Positions 6,423 through 12,405 of a DNA stretch of 64,000 bases are shown here, one piece after another (position 1 is the stretch's first letter; each line of letters opens with the position of its first letter). Position numbers and translations under genes: made by a program. This stretch comes from an uncultured Chlorobiota bacterium. Its GTDB lineage: Bacteria; Bacteroidota; Ignavibacteria; UBA10030; UBA6906. The notes below the pieces were generated by a model. It was not told the DNA's origin. It made no database searches and was given only the letters and a program-made list of their open reading frames with translations. The DNA lies in the NCBI GenBank assembly GCA_900696645.1, contig CAADGV010000042.1:76363-140362 (forward strand). Reading direction: 5' to 3'.

Positions 6423-6866
6423 TCAAACCTTTTTCCTGCATTTGGAGCATGTGCCAAAAATCTGAATTGTCGTACTCTGAATTTCAAAGCCCTTGCTGTT
6501 TGCCATTTCTTCCTGAATCCGTTCAAGCCGGTCGCTTGTGAACTCGATGATATCACCGCAATTCAGGCAGATCATGTGGTGATGATGAGGCCGGCCAAAC
6601 GCCTTTTCGTACCGCGACGTGTTCTCCGCAAATCTGTACTTCGATACGAGACCGCACTCCTGTAGTACCTCGAGTGTGTTGTACACAGTCGCCTTCGACA
6701 CTTTCACGCCGTTTGAAATAAGCCGGTAGTACAACGCTTCCACATCAAAGTGACCCTGGCTCTGAAGAACAGCATCAAGAATAGCAAACCGCTCCGGCGT
6801 AGCTCGTTGCTTTCCGTTCGATTTGAGATGTTTGGTGAGAATTTCGTGAGCGGCTTGTGTGTCCAT
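6423..6866 (-). CDS. fur: Fur family metal-responsive transcriptional repressor
   Basis: DNA-binding repressor of iron-uptake genes. The 147 residues include a winged helix (about 20-85, RATPERFAILDAVL... VSKATVYNTLEVL) and a dimerisation/metal domain with HHHH, CLNCG and C-terminal CSKC, the structural zinc pairs. The residue after SRY is Glu (SRYEKAF), as in Fur-type sensors, whereas peroxide-sensing PerR usually has Asp there, so I favour Fur. It heads the feo operon. A perfect inverted repeat lies just upstream of its start, which suggests autoregulation. Confidence 0.92.
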   Translation of the reverse strand: MDTQAAHEILTKHLKSNGKQRATPERFAILDAVLQSQGHFDVEALYYRLISNGVKVSKATVYNTLEVLQECGLVSKYRFAENTSRYEKAFGRPHHHHMICLNCGDIIEFTSDRLERIQEEMANSKGFEIQSTTIQIFGTCSKCRKKV

Positions 6867-6898: not shown

Positions 6899-7401
6899 AA
6901 AATAAGAACGGATTGGCCTGTTGTCAAGAGATATTCTGACAAATTCTTGATTTTGTTTGAGCGATACCAATTGCTACAAACGACCAATACAAACGACCAA
7001 ACTAATGAGACGGACTGCCGACCAGCTCCATTGATTTACAACAACTTACAGACACGCCAGCAAAAAACGAGTAAAACAAGTACTTGCCATATTTTACAAC
7101 AACTTACAGCAAAAACGTGCCACGAAGCGTAGACGAGACTACCTCAAAAAGCCGATTTGTACCACATGCGTAGACGGGTTTTTGGCGATTGTAGGCGGAT
7201 TTCAATGGGTGCGTGCGACCCGCTCAAAGGCAGGTCGCGCGGAAATAGTAGCAGGTCGCGCGTGAAAACGCAATTTTGAGCACGAATCGATATGCAGGTC
7301 GCGCGCGGAAATAGTAGCAGGTCGCGCGCGGCTGGGTGTCAGTCTTGCAGTCGTGGGTTGTCTAAAGGTTAAAAGCGACACAATGTCACGCAGGTAAGGG
7401 C
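6899..7401. other. Gene-free spacer with two kinds of short repeats
   Basis: About 500 bp between fur and the phage remnant. No convincing gene is visible. It contains two copies of the 17-mer TTTACAACAACTTACAG (7035-7051 and 7093-7109) and two copies of GCGTAGACG. Further right are four copies of GCAGGTCGCGCG arranged in two pairs. The first half is AT-rich and the second half is GC-rich, so it may join pieces of different origin. Confidence 0.6.
7230..7328. repeat. Four copies of GCAGGTCGCGCG in two pairs
   Basis: Copies start at 7230, 7251, 7294 and 7317. Within each pair the copies are 21 or 23 bp apart and are joined by the same linker, GGAAATAGTA or its near match. The spacing is about two helical turns. 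Stop codons interrupt the frame, so it is not coding repetition. It lies next to the phage repressor stump and could be an operator array or the remains of a small mobile element. Confidence 0.6.
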
Positions 7402-7743
7402 TTACTTTTTTCCTCGTTTTGAGCCCCGTTCGGGCTTCGCCGGCGTGGATTCCAACTTGGATGTTCGGCTCATCATGTAGACCCGCAACGCCATACGGAC
7501 CTGCTCATCGCTCATGCCGGTGGCTTCTTTGAACTCGCTCAGTGCCCGGAGGTCATCTATCATGTCCTTCATATCGTCGAGGGTGATCTCCTTACCTATT
7601 TCCTTCATATAGAGTTGCAGCTCCGCGAACACCGAGCGCTGCTCACTGCCTACGTACATTTCCCCCTCACCTGTCAGAAGCCAATTGATGTTGACCCCTG
7701 CCGCCCGGGGAACGGCAGAAGTTGGAACGCGCTGTGCGTGCAA
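7402..7743 (-). pseudogene. C-terminal stump of a phage CI-like repressor
   Basis: The readable part (about 100 residues) starts at AAGVNINWLLTGEGEMY, the signature that follows the helix-turn-helix in many phage repressors, and continues into a helical tail. The DNA-binding N-terminus is absent. Sequence upstream of about 7700 belongs to the oppositely oriented head-protein gene, so the repressor has been cut by a deletion. The Lys/Arg-rich end (RGSKRGKK) is intact. It cannot work as a repressor in this form. Its presence marks the control end of the lost prophage. Confidence 0.65.
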
Positions 7744-8735
7744 GGATGGAAGAAATTGCCAAAGCCCGTGCGCTCGATCTGCCGGGCGAACACATCGACG
7801 CTCTCATTGCCGCCCGCCAAATCAGCATCGGGAATATCCAGCACCAGATGCAAGCCGACCTCCAGCGCGAGGTTCGCCGTGCGCTTGTTGCAGGCTATGG
7901 TCCCGATGTGTTGCGGAAACGGCTGGAGGATCGTGCGTTCGGTAACGCCAAAACCGAGGCGTACACCGCCGTGAGCAGGTTCAACAATTTGCTTACATTT
8001 GAAAACGCCGCCGCCACCGGCACGCAAACATTCAAATACTTCGGTCCCGTCTCGGCAATCACCCGTCCCTTTTGCCGGGCGCATGCGGGGCAGGTGTTCA
8101 CGCTTCAAGAGATCGAGCGGATGGATAACGGACAAGGGCTGAGTGTGCGGGAAAGTCTCGGAGGTTACAATTGCCGTCACTATTGGATACCGGCGAACGA
8201 TCAACGATCAACCGTCAACGATCAACGATCAACCGTACGGATCGGCAAGCAAACATATCTGATGGACGAGGAGCAGAAGCAAACCCTCTTCACCCGCGAG
8301 CGTTCACTCTGGATTCAAACGGCGGAGGCGACGGCAGGGAAACCGGCGTCGTGGTTTCTCACGGCAAAGCCACTCGCGCGTGCGCACGATGGGTTCAACG
8401 AGTACATCACTGGACAACCGAGTGAGGGCGTGTGGGTGCCGAAGGCCAATAAGGGCTATACAGAACATGCCCGGAAGCATAGCGCTGAATTTGGGACAGA
8501 GTATGACTATCGCAACGCGATGGCGAATGCGTTACGCAATCGGGACGCGAAAGTGTACGAAGATGCAATATCGTACTTGGTGCACGATGCGGGCAACAAC
8601 ACGCTGCTGATACTCCGCAAAGGCGACGGCTTGTTGGAATCGGCATATCGTTGGGATAGAGAGAAATGGCCTGATCAATTCAAGGGCAAACGGTTACTTG
8701 GGACACTACGCGAATTCTTGGGAGACTTCCGATGA
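7722..8735 (+). CDS. MuF-type phage head protein with toxin-like C-terminal domain, N-terminally truncated
   Basis: The first part (about 40-157 of 337) is a phage Mu gpF / SPP1 gp7 head-morphogenesis domain, recognised by RPFCRAHAGQVFTLQEIERM and GGYNCRHYWIPA with its Cys/His pattern. The usual longer N-terminus is missing. The frame opens with TTG just after the junction with the repressor stump, so the gene is probably cut. After a repeat-containing linker, residues about 245-335 form a separate domain (His249, His253, Tyr261, then FLVH-like strands and a charged end). This resembles the small RNase-type (BECR-fold) toxins often fused to MuF proteins. That assignment is inference. A small acidic gene follows with a four-base overlap, as toxin and immunity genes often do. 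Confidence 0.72.
   Translation: MERAVRARMEEIAKARALDLPGEHIDALIAARQISIGNIQHQMQADLQREVRRALVAGYGPDVLRKRLEDRAFGNAKTEAYTAVSRFNNLLTFENAAATGTQTFKYFGPVSAITRPFCRAHAGQVFTLQEIERMDNGQGLSVRESLGGYNCRHYWIPANDQRSTVNDQRSTVRIGKQTYLMDEEQKQTLFTRERSLWIQTAEATAGKPASWFLTAKPLARAHDGFNEYITGQPSEGVWVPKANKGYTEHARKHSAEFGTEYDYRNAMANALRNRDAKVYEDAISYLVHDAGNNTLLILRKGDGLLESAYRWDREKWPDQFKGKRLLGTLREFLGDFR
8196..8237 (+). repeat. In-frame 21-bp tandem repeat inside the MuF gene
   Basis: Two head-to-tail 21-bp units differ only at the last base and encode NDQRSTV twice. Each unit itself contains AACGATC twice. The length is a multiple of three, so the frame is kept. It lies exactly in the linker between the MuF domain and the toxin-like domain. 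Confidence 0.85.
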
Positions 8736-9031
8736 GATACATGGCTCACTTTACAAACGATGAAGCAGTGCATGAATGGGAAGAGTTTGCCGACGGGTTA
8801 CGACGCGGCCTGATTGAGCGCGATTACATGACCGATCTCGATATGCGCGAGTCGTTCGAGACCTCCGAGCGCACTCTAACAGATGCGCAACGTGCAGCGG
8901 TCGAACATGTGGATAGGTTTGTGCGTGAGAGGCTTATTTCCGTATTGCAGACGCATCATCTGATAGAAGAATATCGGAACCTCGGTGCTTCACGTCCCCC
9001 GAAATTCTGGTGGTGGCATATGGAGGAGTGA
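8732..9031 (+). CDS. Small acidic helical protein, candidate immunity protein
   Basis: A 99-residue protein whose ATG overlaps the stop of the MuF-toxin gene by four bases (ATGA), so it is translationally coupled. It is acidic and predicted to be mainly helical (HEWEEFADGLRRGLIERD, VEHVDRFVRERLISVLQ) and ends in a Trp-rich stretch (PPKFWWWHMEE). It has no signal peptide or membrane segment. I do not recognise the family. Size, charge, position and coupling are typical of immunity proteins for contact-dependent or MuF-linked toxins, so this is my working call. It could also be a phage structural chaperone. Confidence 0.5.
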   Translation: MRYMAHFTNDEAVHEWEEFADGLRRGLIERDYMTDLDMRESFETSERTLTDAQRAAVEHVDRFVRERLISVLQTHHLIEEYRNLGASRPPKFWWWHMEE

Positions 9032-9103
9032 GGCAACACATTATCGGGCAAGCACGCAGTTTGCACCAACAAATCATAAGCACAAGAAAAGGAGCGAGGA
9101 AAA

Positions 9104-9468
9104 TATGAGGCTAACCGGGGAACTGATAATCGACACGGAACTGATGGGCGACATCGGGCGACAACGGAGCGGCGGCAGTGCTTCAGAGTGCTGACAACTA
9201 CTCGGACGGTACGACAACATTCACGGTTACGTTACCTGCGGCTCTCAGTAGTTCTGCCAACCTCGTCGTGGCGGCATGTACACACGGCAACAGTGATGAG
9301 GCGACAGCCGAGGATGGTTGGACACAACTGTCGCACATAACGACGGGAGACTCTTGGGATCGGATAAATGCTACCTTCAATTACAAGAGTGGCACATCTG
9401 ATAATTCATATTCCGAGGCCTGGGGCTATAATAGCGGTTCCGGCGTGATTGCAGAGATCGAAATTTGA
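9104..9468 (+). pseudogene. Frameshifted phage-associated hypothetical gene
   Basis: A strong ribosome site (AAGGAGCGAGG) precedes an ATG that opens MRLTGELIIDTELMG and then stops after 29 codons. The neighbouring frame continues with a coherent, Ser/Thr-rich beta-type sequence (SADNYSDGTTTFTVTLPAAL ... VIAEIEI) up to a normal stop. The two parts fit one gene of about 120 residues broken by a -1 shift near 9140-9170. The sequence looks like a phage particle or surface protein, but I do not recognise the family. It could also be two unrelated pieces joined by deletion. Confidence 0.4.
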
Positions 9469-9507
9469 AACAAACTGAATCCACAAACTAACCTCAAGGA
9501 GTGAACC

Positions 9508-9972
9508 ATGGCTGAAGATCTCACCAAAGTATTCCCTTACACGTGCGACGTGTGGGTGGCAAAGCGCACAGTGCCGACAACGCCGATCGCGCCGACAACG
9601 GCTATGACCGGGTACACACACATCGGCGCGTTCAAAGCCGGTAGCGCAAAACTCAGTACGGAGAAATTCGGGTACGAATGGCAGGGCGGCGAAATGCAAA
9701 CCGGCATCAAAGCCAAGCTCGAAATCGAAGGTGTTGAAACCGACGATGCAAAACTCGCCGCGATGAAAGCCAACAAGAACGCAGTCTGCGATTTTTGTTT
9801 CAAGCCGCGCAATGCAACGCTTGCCACGGTGATCCACCTGCCCGGCTTCACGCCGAGCGGGCCGCTTCCTGCGGCGCAACCGGACGGCAAAAATCCGATG
9901 AGTTGGAAATTGGAAGCGAGCTGCATCGCCGATGACGGCGCGGACGTTTTTAAGAACGTCACACTCTCGTAA
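9508..9972 (+). CDS. Probable phage tail tube (major tail) protein
   Basis: A 154-residue protein with a good ribosome site (AAGGAG) before its ATG. It has no signal peptide or membrane segment and is rich in beta-type sequence (GAFKAGSAKLSTEKFGYEWQ, then KAKLEIEGVETDD). The call rests on size, fold style and gene order: it stands just before a tail assembly chaperone with a frameshift site and the tape-measure gene. That order (tube, chaperone G/GT, tape measure) is standard in long-tailed phages. Sequence identity to a named family is not certain. Confidence 0.55.
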   Translation: MAEDLTKVFPYTCDVWVAKRTVPTTPIAPTTAMTGYTHIGAFKAGSAKLSTEKFGYEWQGGEMQTGIKAKLEIEGVETDDAKLAAMKANKNAVCDFCFKPRNATLATVIHLPGFTPSGPLPAAQPDGKNPMSWKLEASCIADDGADVFKNVTLS

Positions 9973-10076
9973 GGTTCACACCTCCGAGACTCGTGCACCC
10001 TTCGGCCCGCCGATTGCCCCGGTGGCCGGAGGGACACGAGATTAAATTGCACTCATAAGGGCAATATGAGGTACAG

Positions 10077-10544
10077 ATGACTCAATACACAATCGCTGGC
10101 AAGGTCTTTGAACTGAGGCCACTCACACTCCGACAACGATTCTTGACCAAGGAGTTTTCCCAGAAACTCCGTCAACAAATAATTGAGATGGCCGCTGCTC
10201 TTCCGTATGCGGGCGAGCCTTCAAACAATCCCAAATGGGCGGAATCATTACGTAAGTCCTTCGAGGTAACAATCCAAGTTGAGGAGCTGATTCTCAACGA
10301 GCGCGAGCAATTCAATCGCTTCCTTGCAACCATCCTTGTGCCACCTGATGCGGCGCGCTGGATACCGGAGATGGTGGAACTGCACAAAGAAACCATGTGG
10401 GACATTGACGAAGTAACCGAGGGTCAAGTGATAGCGGATTTTTTTTCCAGGGCGACGAAATCGCCGGTCGTTTCTCAAGTCTCTATCGAAGCCTCGACGA
10501 ACGGCAAGAATGTATCCGCAACGTTAGAGCCTCCAAGAAACTGA
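10077..10544 (+). CDS. Phage tail assembly chaperone, short (G) product
   Basis: A 155-residue protein that should help tail-tube assembly around the tape measure. It begins MTQYTIAGKVFELRPLTLRQR, given here in shortened form as TIAGKVFELRPLTLR, which is the usual opening of such phage proteins. It is helical and carries no membrane segment. Near codon 121 the frame passes through eight T residues that contain a perfect slippery heptamer. Beyond it the zero frame adds a low-complexity tail (EASTNGKNVSATLEPPRN) and stops, while the -1 frame stays open. The longer fusion product is described separately. Confidence 0.65.
   Translation: MTQYTIAGKVFELRPLTLRQRFLTKEFSQKLRQQIIEMAAALPYAGEPSNNPKWAESLRKSFEVTIQVEELILNEREQFNRFLATILVPPDAARWIPEMVELHKETMWDIDEVTEGQVIADFFSRATKSPVVSQVSIEASTNGKNVSATLEPPRN
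10439..10445 (+). promoter_or_regulatory. Programmed -1 ribosomal frameshift site (T TTT TTT)
   Basis: In the zero frame the codons read GAT TTT TTT TCC, so the heptamer T TTT TTT is in the exact register for tandem slippage. After slipping, reading resumes at TTC CAG GGC GAC GAA. The -1 frame remains open for 93 codons, whereas the zero frame ends 33 codons later. Confidence 0.7.
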
Positions 10545-10726
10545 CCGGTGACGATGAGATGCTCATTCCAGACTGTGATCCGTACATACTCCTTGTGCAC
10601 CGGCTGAGTGACGGCGATATGTGCAAACAAGCAGCGATCTGGGAAATGCCGGAAGAAGATGTGCAGATGGCGCTGTATCTCAGGCGTGTGGATCGGTTGA
10701 ATGAGGAGTGGGCGATGGTGACGTAA
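10445..10726 (+). CDS. Tail assembly chaperone, frameshift (T) extension
   Basis: This reading frame has no sensible start of its own and is entered from the upstream gene by -1 slippage. It encodes FQGDEIAGRFSSLYRSLDER and then a well-ordered acidic/helical domain (DEMLIPDCDPYILLVHRLSD, KQAAIWEMPEEDVQMALYL). The G-T fusion would be 216 residues. It ends at a TAA shortly before the tape-measure gene. In lambda-like phages the T domain recruits tail-tube subunits to the tape measure. The amino-acid composition is much more protein-like than the zero-frame tail, which supports the frameshift. No start-codon search would list it. Confidence 0.65.
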   Translation, partial: FQGDEIAGRFSSLYRSLDERQECIRNVRASKKLTGDDEMLIPDCDPYILLVHRLSDGDMCKQAAIWEMPEEDVQMALYLRRVDRLNEEWAMVT

Positions 10727-10886
10727 TGTTCCATATTTCGATGAAGCGAACAACCATGCACACAATGCCGAGCACCATAGCGAGAGCGAGGAAGAATGTC
10801 GCAACAATGAATGAGAAGGCAGCCGCAGCGGCGCTGCACATTGCGAGCACCACAGCCCAAGCAAGAATATAGTTTGAAAGTTTCAT
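10680..10886 (-). CDS. Possible two-helix membrane peptide on the opposite strand
   Basis: An antisense frame from ATG gives 68 residues with two hydrophobic helices (YILAWAVVLAMCSAAAAAF and LALAMVLGIVCMVVRFIEIW) and a Pro/Ser-rich tail. It fills the gap between the tail chaperone and the tape-measure gene and starts two bases inside the latter. No clear ribosome site is present. Small hydrophobic moron genes occur at such positions, but an accidental antisense frame in Ala-rich DNA is equally possible. Confidence 0.25.
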   Translation of the reverse strand: MKLSNYILAWAVVLAMCSAAAAAFSFIVATFFLALAMVLGIVCMVVRFIEIWNITSPSPTPHSTDPHA

Positions 10887-11106
10887 GGCACAGACACTGA
10901 CATTCACCATCAAATTCAACGTTGACCCGCCCAACGTACAGCAGACATTGGATGCCGTCAATACCAGTCTGAAGAATGTCGGCGTTTCTGTTACCAATGT
11001 AGCGGAAACCGCCCCGAAAGTCAATGCGCTGGACGACTCGTTCACGAAGATAGGACTGCGCCTTCAGGGGATGCAGAATGGGTTCTCTTGGCCCCGTCTA
11101 CGCTAA
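10885..11106 (+). pseudogene. Tail tape-measure protein, N-terminal stump
   Basis: The first about 65 residues (MAQTLTFTIKFNVDPPNVQQ, then TLDAVNTSLKNVGVSVTNV) look like the start of a phage tape-measure protein, with heptad-like helix and the typical opening beta strand. The protein should be several hundred to over a thousand residues long but ends at codon 73, after a change to unrelated AT-rich sequence (about 11,090). This is the right-hand boundary of the prophage remnant. It follows the tail chaperone in the standard order. Confidence 0.6.
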
Positions 11107-11295
11107 ATGGCACAAATTTCTGAAGTCTTTTGGTCGGTTACAATAATTGGAACTATAGGTTTGGAAGCACATATCGGCATTGGTTTTGCGAATGTGAGAA
11201 TCTTCGAAATTTGCAAAAATTCCTTGCATTCTTTTGCTGAATTCGTATATTTCTCCCATTGAAAGTTAGGTAGATCATCTAAACATTTTATTTTA

Positions 11296-12405
11296 ATGAA
11301 ATCTGGTAAGAGCAAGTTCCTGAGTGGAAAGAAAATCGTTCCCGCTCCCATTCCGAAAAACGTTCGGGTGGATGAACTTGTCGATACCTATTTTCAAGCG
11401 TACAATGCAGGCAGGCTTCGGGAAGCGTGCAATCTCTTCACCAAAAAAATGCTCGAACCCGACGTTACAATTGGAATGAGCTTGACCGGCGCGCTGACCC
11501 CGGCAGGTTTAGGCGGTTCCTGTATTGTTCCCCTTATCAGGGCGGGATTTGTTGATTGGATTGTGAGCACTGGGGCAAACCTCTACCATGACACGCATTT
11601 TGCAATAGGAAAGAGCCTGCATCGCGGCAATCCGTTCATTGATGATAGAATATTGAGAAAAGAAGGCGTTGTCCGGATTTACGATATTCTTTTTGATTAT
11701 GACGTTTTGCTGAGCACGGATGAGTTCTTCAGGAAAATCATCAGGTATCAGGAATTTCAAAAGGAAATGGGCACGGCAGAACTTCACTACAGGCTCGGTC
11801 GGTACATTGCAGAACGTGAGAAGATCCTGGGGATCAAGCACGCGAGCGTATTGGCAACGGCGTATCGGTGCGGAGTTCCGGTGTACACATCATCTCCCGG
11901 CGATAGCTCAATCGGGATGAATATTGCCGAAATTGAATTGTCCGGCAAAGCAACGCGCATCGATCCTCTTCTTGACGTGAACGAAACAGCAGCCATTGTT
12001 CTCGATGCAAAACGAAAGGGTGGCAAAAGCGGCGTACTGATTTTCGGGGGAGGATCGCCAAAGAATTTCATTCTACAAACCGAGCCACAGATTCAGGAAG
12101 TTCTGAAAATCAACGAAAAAGGGCACGATTTCTTCCTGCAAGTTACCGATGCGCGGCCTGATACCGGCGGCCTTTCGGGGGCAACACCATCGGAAGCCGT
12201 AAGCTGGGGAAAAGTCGACCCCGATAGATTGCCTGATACTGTTGTTGCATACGTCGATTCCACGATTGCGATGCCAATTATGACATCGTATGCCCTTGCA
12301 AAGCGAAAGCCCCGCAAGTTACGACGTCTCTATGAAAGACGGACGGAATTGGTGGACAGCTTGCGCAAAGAGTATTTCAAGATGTTGCGAAGAACAAAGA
12401 AATAA
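11296..12405 (+). CDS. Deoxyhypusine synthase family enzyme (bacterial type)
   Basis: A cytoplasmic NAD-dependent aminobutyl transferase of 369 residues. Family blocks include [58 protein letters not shown] and SEAVSWGK; the Lys of SWGK corresponds to the catalytic lysine of the eukaryotic enzyme. Bacteria lack eIF5A, and several bacterial members make homospermidine from putrescine or spermidine, so polyamine synthesis is the likely role here; this is inference. No eIF5A-like gene is visible. The ribosome site is weak, as often in this phylum. It stands right beside the prophage stump and may share its upstream region with it. The histone-like gene follows on the same strand after 56 bp. Confidence 0.88.

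Follow-up and report, generated by a model that had tools for sequence, protein, structure and literature searches.

What is encoded by a truncated phage head gene and the small gene that overlaps its end, and is the pair kept for its own sake when most of the phage around it is gone? Most MuF toxins known so far come from Firmicutes and from Bacteroides of the gut. Here, we analysed a stretch of 64,000 nucleotides from an uncultured Chlorobiota bacterium (class Ignavibacteria, contig CAADGV010000042.1; hereafter the window), for which a reading of the letters alone (the sequence-only reading) had proposed a polymorphic toxin of the MuF type that is coupled to an immunity gene. From the evidence described below, the locus is likely to derive from a Mu-like temperate phage and to keep, in a remnant of it, the toxin end of such a MuF system together with its immunity gene, the toxin being a predicted colicin D-like RNase.

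Structure of the locus

The features of the locus are collected in Table 1. The two ORFs that had been described are both present and share an ATGA at 8732..8735 (+), which holds the stop of the toxin gene and the start of the immunity gene. The first ORF has a TTG start, and the frame upstream of it stays open for just nine codons. By any single profile its MuF identity is weak (Pfam Phage_Mu_F, E=0.002, which is under the Pfam cut-off; TIGR01641, E=4.5e-4; phrog_595 'head maturation protease', E=3e-6), but by homology we judge it solid. Residues 22-333 are 40% identical to a MuF-toxin protein of a Mu-like prophage in genome G038, the MuF domain of which matches Phage_Mu_F at 5e-6 (3e-6 to 2e-5 among the MuF relatives), and the signature FCRxHxG...NGQG...GGYxCxH is conserved among these relatives. 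The N-terminal part of the window gene is missing, as the relatives are longer there by ~80-100 residues in the alignment, and at ~7700 the gene is joined to a truncated repressor. Downstream of the MuF domain, the motif AKPLARAHDGxN is invariant save for x in the window, G038 and G074 and is partly kept in a fusion in G026. The proposed division into a MuF domain and a separate C-terminal domain is borne out by the MuF homology of the former and by homologues of the latter in three other genomes.

Table 1 Features of the MuF-toxin locus and the surrounding prophage remnant (window positions).
Feature	Position	Strand	Basis
Mu-like prophage remnant	6960..11146		~4.2 kb, approximate bounds; comparison with empty site in two congeners
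Phage repressor, C-terminal half, truncated at MuF junction	7402..7700	-	phrog_8, Phage_CI_repr, G038 repressor
MuF-toxin fusion gene	7722..8735	+	337 aa, 5'-truncated; homology to G038 MuF-toxin
MuF domain	7857..8177	+	residues 46-152, Phage_Mu_F match
Pre-toxin motif AKPLARAHDGxN	8364..8399	+	residues 215-226
C-terminal toxin domain	8418..8732	+	residues 233-337, predicted BECR, colicin D-like (AlphaFold2, PDB matches)
His249 and His253, candidate catalytic helix	8466..8480	+	alignments, colicin D Hxx[ED] motif
[ST]xx[KR] motif, Ser307-Arg310	8640..8651	+	conserved in all four toxins
Immunity gene	8732..9031	+	99 aa; homologues directly after toxin homologues
WWWH signature, immunity C-terminus	9008..9019	+	invariant in 6/6 homologues
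Intact phage-like ORF, inferred tail gene	9508..9972	+	position and size only
Intact phage-like ORF, inferred tail assembly gene	10077..10544	+	position and size only
Truncated tape-measure N-terminus	10885..11106	+	similarity to G074 tape-measure ORF

The prophage remnant

The bounds of the remnant were taken from two congeners (G001 and G002), in which the fur-like gene that flanks the remnant (window 6423-6866) and the gene at 11296 adjoin, 252 and 235 bp apart. Homology of the window to both congeners ends at ~6959 and resumes at ~11147 in the alignment, and the pair lies in the intervening remnant that both of them lack. Within the remnant, the repressor ORF matches a transcriptional regulator family (phrog_8, E=2.6e-4), the C-terminal edge of Phage_CI_repr (E=0.024) and, weakly, the repressor of the G038 prophage (E=0.004). 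The tape-measure fragment shares 30% identity over 67 aa (E=1.5e-4) with a truncated tape-measure ORF that lies beside the G074 toxin. Of the two intact phage-like ORFs, the one at 9508..9972 has no Pfam or PHROG match and the one at 10077..10544 no significant match in the same databases. The left part of the remnant contains direct repeats of 17 nt (TTTACAACAACTTACAG, two copies) and 13 nt (TACAAACGACCAA, two copies), and this repeated part could be a Mu-type end. A further repeat, of 27 nt and containing GCAGGTCGCGCG, occurs three times at 7236-7328, in the part that separates the truncated repressor from the left end of the remnant.

The G038 contig carries Mu transposase (2.2e-13), Mu Gam (2.7e-32), Portal_Mu (6e-65) and tape measure (2e-19) genes, in the order repressor (-), then transposase, Gam, MuF-toxin and immunity gene (+), then portal and terminase (-). 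From this order, we infer that the window remnant fits three deletions, which would run from the repressor to MuF, from the immunity gene to the tail region and from the tape measure to the right end.

The toxin domain and the immunity gene occur as matched pairs

The toxin domain was found in four genomes, namely that of the window and three others: G038 (Ignavibacteriae MAG CAISDA010000045, same order), G074 (Bacteroidetes MAG JACFMZ010000054) and G026. In all four, the toxin homologue is followed by an immunity homologue, which is present once in G038 and twice each in G074 and G026. Two subtypes can be distinguished; subtype I comprises the window, G038 and a displaced cassette of G026, and subtype II comprises G074 and the intact cassette of G026. 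The immunity proteins follow this division closely, with shuffle Z scores of 27-40 among window, G038 and G026i1, 18-33 among G074a, G074b and G026i2, and 8-15 for cross pairs. For the toxins, the scores are 35.6 (window-G038), 18.2 (G074-G026t2) and 4-22 for cross pairs; since G038 and G074, which are of different subtypes, resemble each other as much (Z 21.6) as the two subtype II toxins do, the split is less clean for the toxins than for the immunity proteins.

The partner had been described as acidic and helical, and it is both: the 99-aa protein has a pI of 5.20 and a charge of -7.9, and its predicted structure is all-helical (pLDDT 86, pTM 0.78). The six members of the family have in common only M1, L23, R39, D61, Y81, P89 and the WWWH end. 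Neither Pfam, NCBIfam nor PADLOC gave a significant match to the window protein, and its matches in PHROG are marginal and to families of unknown function (best E=0.0017), so that it did not turn out to be a known phage protein. Searches with the six homologues likewise gave no significant Pfam or NCBIfam match, ImmD and Imm64 included. The structural search with the model returned no convincing or specific relative; ImmD is absent from the listed rows, which excludes nothing.

Similar proteins occur outside these loci. Stand-alone helical, immunity-like proteins ending in WWW (L030, L033, L034 and L036, near 1417-1845) are encoded in several genomes from other classes of the phylum among housekeeping genes, with no toxin where the neighbours are readable, and by profile comparison (hhalign 3e-6) they are possible distant homologues of the immunity family. 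In G304 (L021:5542-6218, -), a BECR-like toxin ORF interrupted by an internal stop, with a hint of PBECR3 (E=0.16), is directly followed by an intact immunity-like WWW protein; this locus would be a dead toxin beside an immunity gene that was kept.

Predicted fold and active site of the toxin domain

The C-terminal ~105 residues are not matched by any Pfam, PHROG, NCBIfam or PADLOC model, and profile searches of PDB sequences gave chance matches only (cadherin, neuroserpin), with no nuclease match at the sequence level. The PBECR domains of Pfam (such as PF18810 PBECR2 and PF18812 PBECR3) do not match the window domain, which the sequence-only reading had likewise placed in no recognised family. 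Scans of viral contigs with the toxin and immunity proteins returned zero relatives, and tblastn of phages and plasmids with either protein returned nothing meaningful. The charge of the domain is near neutral (pI 7.1), not basic.

When the toxin region (residues 178-337) was modelled alone with AlphaFold2 from an alignment of four sequences, a model with a mean pLDDT of 73.9 and a pTM of 0.71 was obtained, in which the toxin core (residues ~248-337) is formed by blocks at pLDDT 76-92. The model contains a BECR-type arrangement of a helix (H83-95) followed by a four-stranded antiparallel sheet (E100-103, E107-112, E117-122 and E128-133). The first six Foldseek matches in the PDB are all colicin D or CdiA-CT (probability 0.93-1.00; best E 0.047, TM 0.62 on the target), and the first seven chains of VIA-align (Z 6.7-5.7) are again all colicin D or CdiA-CT; chains below these, among them colicin E5 and RelE, have Z of 4.5 or less. 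With Foldseek E values of only ~0.05 and VIA-align Z below 8, the matches are consistent but individually not strong. A Z under 8 is no proof by itself, and the weight lies in the fact that one superfamily heads the list. Based on these models, we assign the toxin domain to a colicin D-like BECR fold with moderate confidence.

The general base of colicin D is His611, which lies on a helix (PMC9990079); its essential residues are K607, K608, H611, D614 and S677, and its motifs are Hxx[ED] and [TS]xxK (PMC3482391). Three of the range offsets of VIA-align place His611 at His249, and a shift by one turn would place it at His253. Of the pattern of His249, His253 and Tyr261 that had been noticed in the window, His249 stood, being invariant in the alignment of all four toxins. 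His253 is kept in subtype I only (window and G038), the other two toxins having Arg there, and it is Tyr263 that is the invariant tyrosine, with no conservation of Tyr261. H253xxE256 thus fits the Hxx[ED] motif in subtype I only, and the sheet motif [TS]xxK is found in all four toxins with K or R in the last position (SAYR, TFYR, STMK and TALR); His249, Tyr263 and [ST]xx[KR] are the features common to the toxins. The colicin D motifs are therefore present in part, with His253 missing in subtype II and the first lysines not clearly present. From the model and these residues, the most likely prediction for the C-terminal domain is a metal-independent RNase with a BECR fold of the colicin D/CdiA-CT type.

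The modest Foldseek and VIA-align scores, the missing nuclease match at the sequence level, the shallow alignment and the absence of His253 from subtype II would also fit a true toxin-immunity cassette in which the toxin has another activity and resembles BECR proteins through a common alpha/beta arrangement. We consider this unlikely, since colicin D and CdiA-CT fill all the top seven VIA-align positions with colicin E5 and RelE below them, His249 and the [ST]xx[KR] motif are conserved in four of four toxins, and a PBECR2 domain is carried by a neighbouring MuF protein in one of the same genomes (G074).

Polymorphism of the MuF subfamily

In a class-wide search, MuF relatives were found in 22 of 391 genomes, and their C-termini differ. 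The MuF proteins of G070 and G076 are without a C-terminal domain, that of G059 has a metallopeptidase-like domain (HEVGHYLDH) and is followed by a small overlapping ORF, and a CdiA_C domain is found on the MuF proteins of G346 (4.3e-10) and, more weakly, G236 (E=0.0012). A search of viral contigs with the MuF alignment gave 44 relatives in IMG/VR, mostly short, of which one has CdiA_C (4.6e-11) and one an ADP-ribosyltransferase domain (ART, 6.2e-10); in both cases, a small ORF that overlaps or abuts the MuF gene comes next. Judged from these sequences, such variable C-termini on one MuF subfamily are the defining behaviour of a polymorphic toxin system.

This variability also bears on an alternative reading, in which the extension would be a normal part of MuF that serves structure or assembly and the small gene would be a head or chaperone gene. 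MuF proteins often bear C-terminal extensions without known toxin function (PMC5576092), which speaks for such a reading, but it is highly improbable here: close MuF relatives lack the extension or have other toxin domains in its place, the domain and its immunity gene survive as a pair beside a broken MuF in G074 and G026, immunity copies are duplicated beside toxin scraps, and no match of the domain to a structural domain of phage heads was found.

As for gene context, the portal gene lies on the strand opposite to muf and beside another gene in G038, G059, G070, G076 and G132; in the window, the head module is deleted. In the Mu-like prophages at L022, L025, L026, L027 and L079, muf is on the strand opposite to portal and terminase and does not directly follow the portal gene; in four of them it is downstream of Gam. 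G366 has three MuF proteins with long C-terminal domains (L073, L071 and L055), and the one that was scanned (L073) matches no Pfam family.

Displaced cassettes

In G026, a MuF fragment fused to a subtype II toxin is followed by the subtype II immunity gene, the ~33 codons at the end of a subtype I toxin gene and a subtype I immunity gene, and a 91-nt repeat (89%) starts within the 3' end of each immunity gene. In G074, the order is toxin, immunity gene, toxin tail (KKIGTLKNFIGL) and second immunity gene, and a 73-nt repeat (93%) spans the 3' end of each immunity gene. The scraps agree in subtype with the immunity genes that they precede: the G026 toxin tail reaches scores of 78 and 69 against the toxins of subtype I but 18 and 10 against those of subtype II, and for the scrap before the second immunity gene of G074 the best match is the G074 toxin (53 vs 15-29). 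A toxin tail and an immunity gene past an intact cassette, with repeats at the borders, is the layout of an orphan array, and it is present in G026 and G074 but not in the window. Orphan cdiA-CT/cdiI modules have the same layout, which was ascribed to illegitimate recombination downstream of incoming cassettes (PMC6336857). In a literature search of incomplete coverage, no report of displaced orphan cassettes behind MuF was found.

The G074 remnant also contains a second, canonical MuF protein with a PBECR2 domain (E=1.3e-6; L024:15940-17749, -), after which a separate ORF is 70% identical to the C-terminal part of this MuF. From its sequence, this is possibly another toxin-tail duplication in the same remnant.

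By comparison of sequences, that is by co-occurrence, matched subtypes, variable C-termini and displaced cassettes, the proposed reading as a MuF polymorphic toxin and its coupled immunity partner is well supported.

Proposed function and retention of the pair

According to the known model, the toxin of an intact phage would be brought into the capsid by its MuF domain and would reach the next cell together with the DNA. The C-terminal domain probably cuts tRNA, using an active site that would consist of His249/His253 on the first helix and [ST]xx[KR] of the sheet, and the translationally coupled 99-aa helical protein would bind and block the toxin, so that the carrying cell survives. Cassettes are probably exchanged between conserved borders, with MuF and AKPLARAHDG upstream and the WWWH end of the immunity protein downstream, and displaced cassettes persist as toxin-tail scraps with full-length immunity genes, as the sequences of two relatives show. 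Since the MuF part is truncated in the window, virion delivery from this locus is unlikely, and the remnant would act at most as protection or as a pair resembling a toxin-antitoxin system.

Whether the pair is still there because it is useful is less clear. Three of the four genomes (those of the window, G074 and G026) have a broken MuF region beside a toxin domain and immunity genes that are still open, and all that is left of the G026 prophage is the toxin-immunity array and a fragment of one neighbour gene. This pattern suggests that the pair is retained by selection and stands against the view that the pair is genuine but the locus neutral debris, intact as a young insertion and with nothing retained by selection. 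That view is only slightly short of an even chance: the neighbouring phage ORFs (9508-9972 and 10077-10544) are open as well, the MuF gene is truncated with an uncertain start, and the insert is absent from both congeners and thus possibly recent. In addition, the loci were found through the toxin, which biases the sample for this question. A broader proposal, possible though rather doubtful, is that the Mu-like phages of this group swap MuF cassettes in the manner of CDI, and that after prophage decay the host keeps the cassettes, displaced immunity genes included, either as a record of protection from toxins that phages once brought in or as a toxin-antitoxin pair that has been domesticated.

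Comparison with known systems

MuF polymorphic toxins were described in temperate phages by Jamet et al. 2017 (PMC5576092), and MuF toxins of Bacteroidales include Bxa of Bacteroides (PMC11699363). Like these, the window pair has a MuF N-terminus, a variable C-terminal toxin and a small downstream immunity ORF, in a temperate phage or prophage. It differs from them in several features. First, the families of both proteins are absent from Pfam and NCBIfam and without a clear PHROG. Second, the muf genes of related prophages are away from the portal, in an operon on the Gam side and on the opposite strand in several genomes; a position immediately downstream of the portal is the usual context of the MuF toxin family and not a strict requirement. 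Third, displaced orphan cassettes occur among the relatives of the pair.

Compared with the colicin D and CdiA-CT tRNases (PDB 1v74, 1tfk and 8ey4), the toxin domain shares the predicted fold, the helix histidine and [ST]xx[KR], but it has no detectable sequence similarity, its motif is partial and it is carried by a MuF protein. Tox-ColicinD, partnered by ImmD or Imm64, was among the toxins on MuF proteins that Zhang et al. 2012 (PMC3482391) listed, so that the combination is not new and the families are; unlike these partners, the 99-aa protein matches neither ImmD nor Imm64 by Pfam. The PBECR domains (PF18810 PBECR2 and PF18812 PBECR3) are likewise BECR nucleases of phage proteins, and PBECR2 is present on the second MuF protein beside the G074 array, but the window domain matches no PBECR. 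By these sequence comparisons, the window pair is of a known kind, but its toxin and its immunity protein each represent a new family, and both families are so far found only in Mu-like prophages of a group including Ignavibacteriae.

The closest parallel to the arrays of the relatives is found in contact-dependent systems. As in orphan cdiA-CT/cdiI arrays (PMC6336857), toxin tails are displaced, immunity genes are kept after the active cassette and repeats mark the borders, whereas here the arrays lie in Mu-like prophage remnants and behind a MuF gene rather than a CdiA gene. Cassette displacement behind a MuF gene is shown by these arrays, and two questions become testable: whether toxins carried by phages drive the hoarding of immunity genes that contact-dependent systems display, and whether protection of the host is the reason that such pairs survive the phage.
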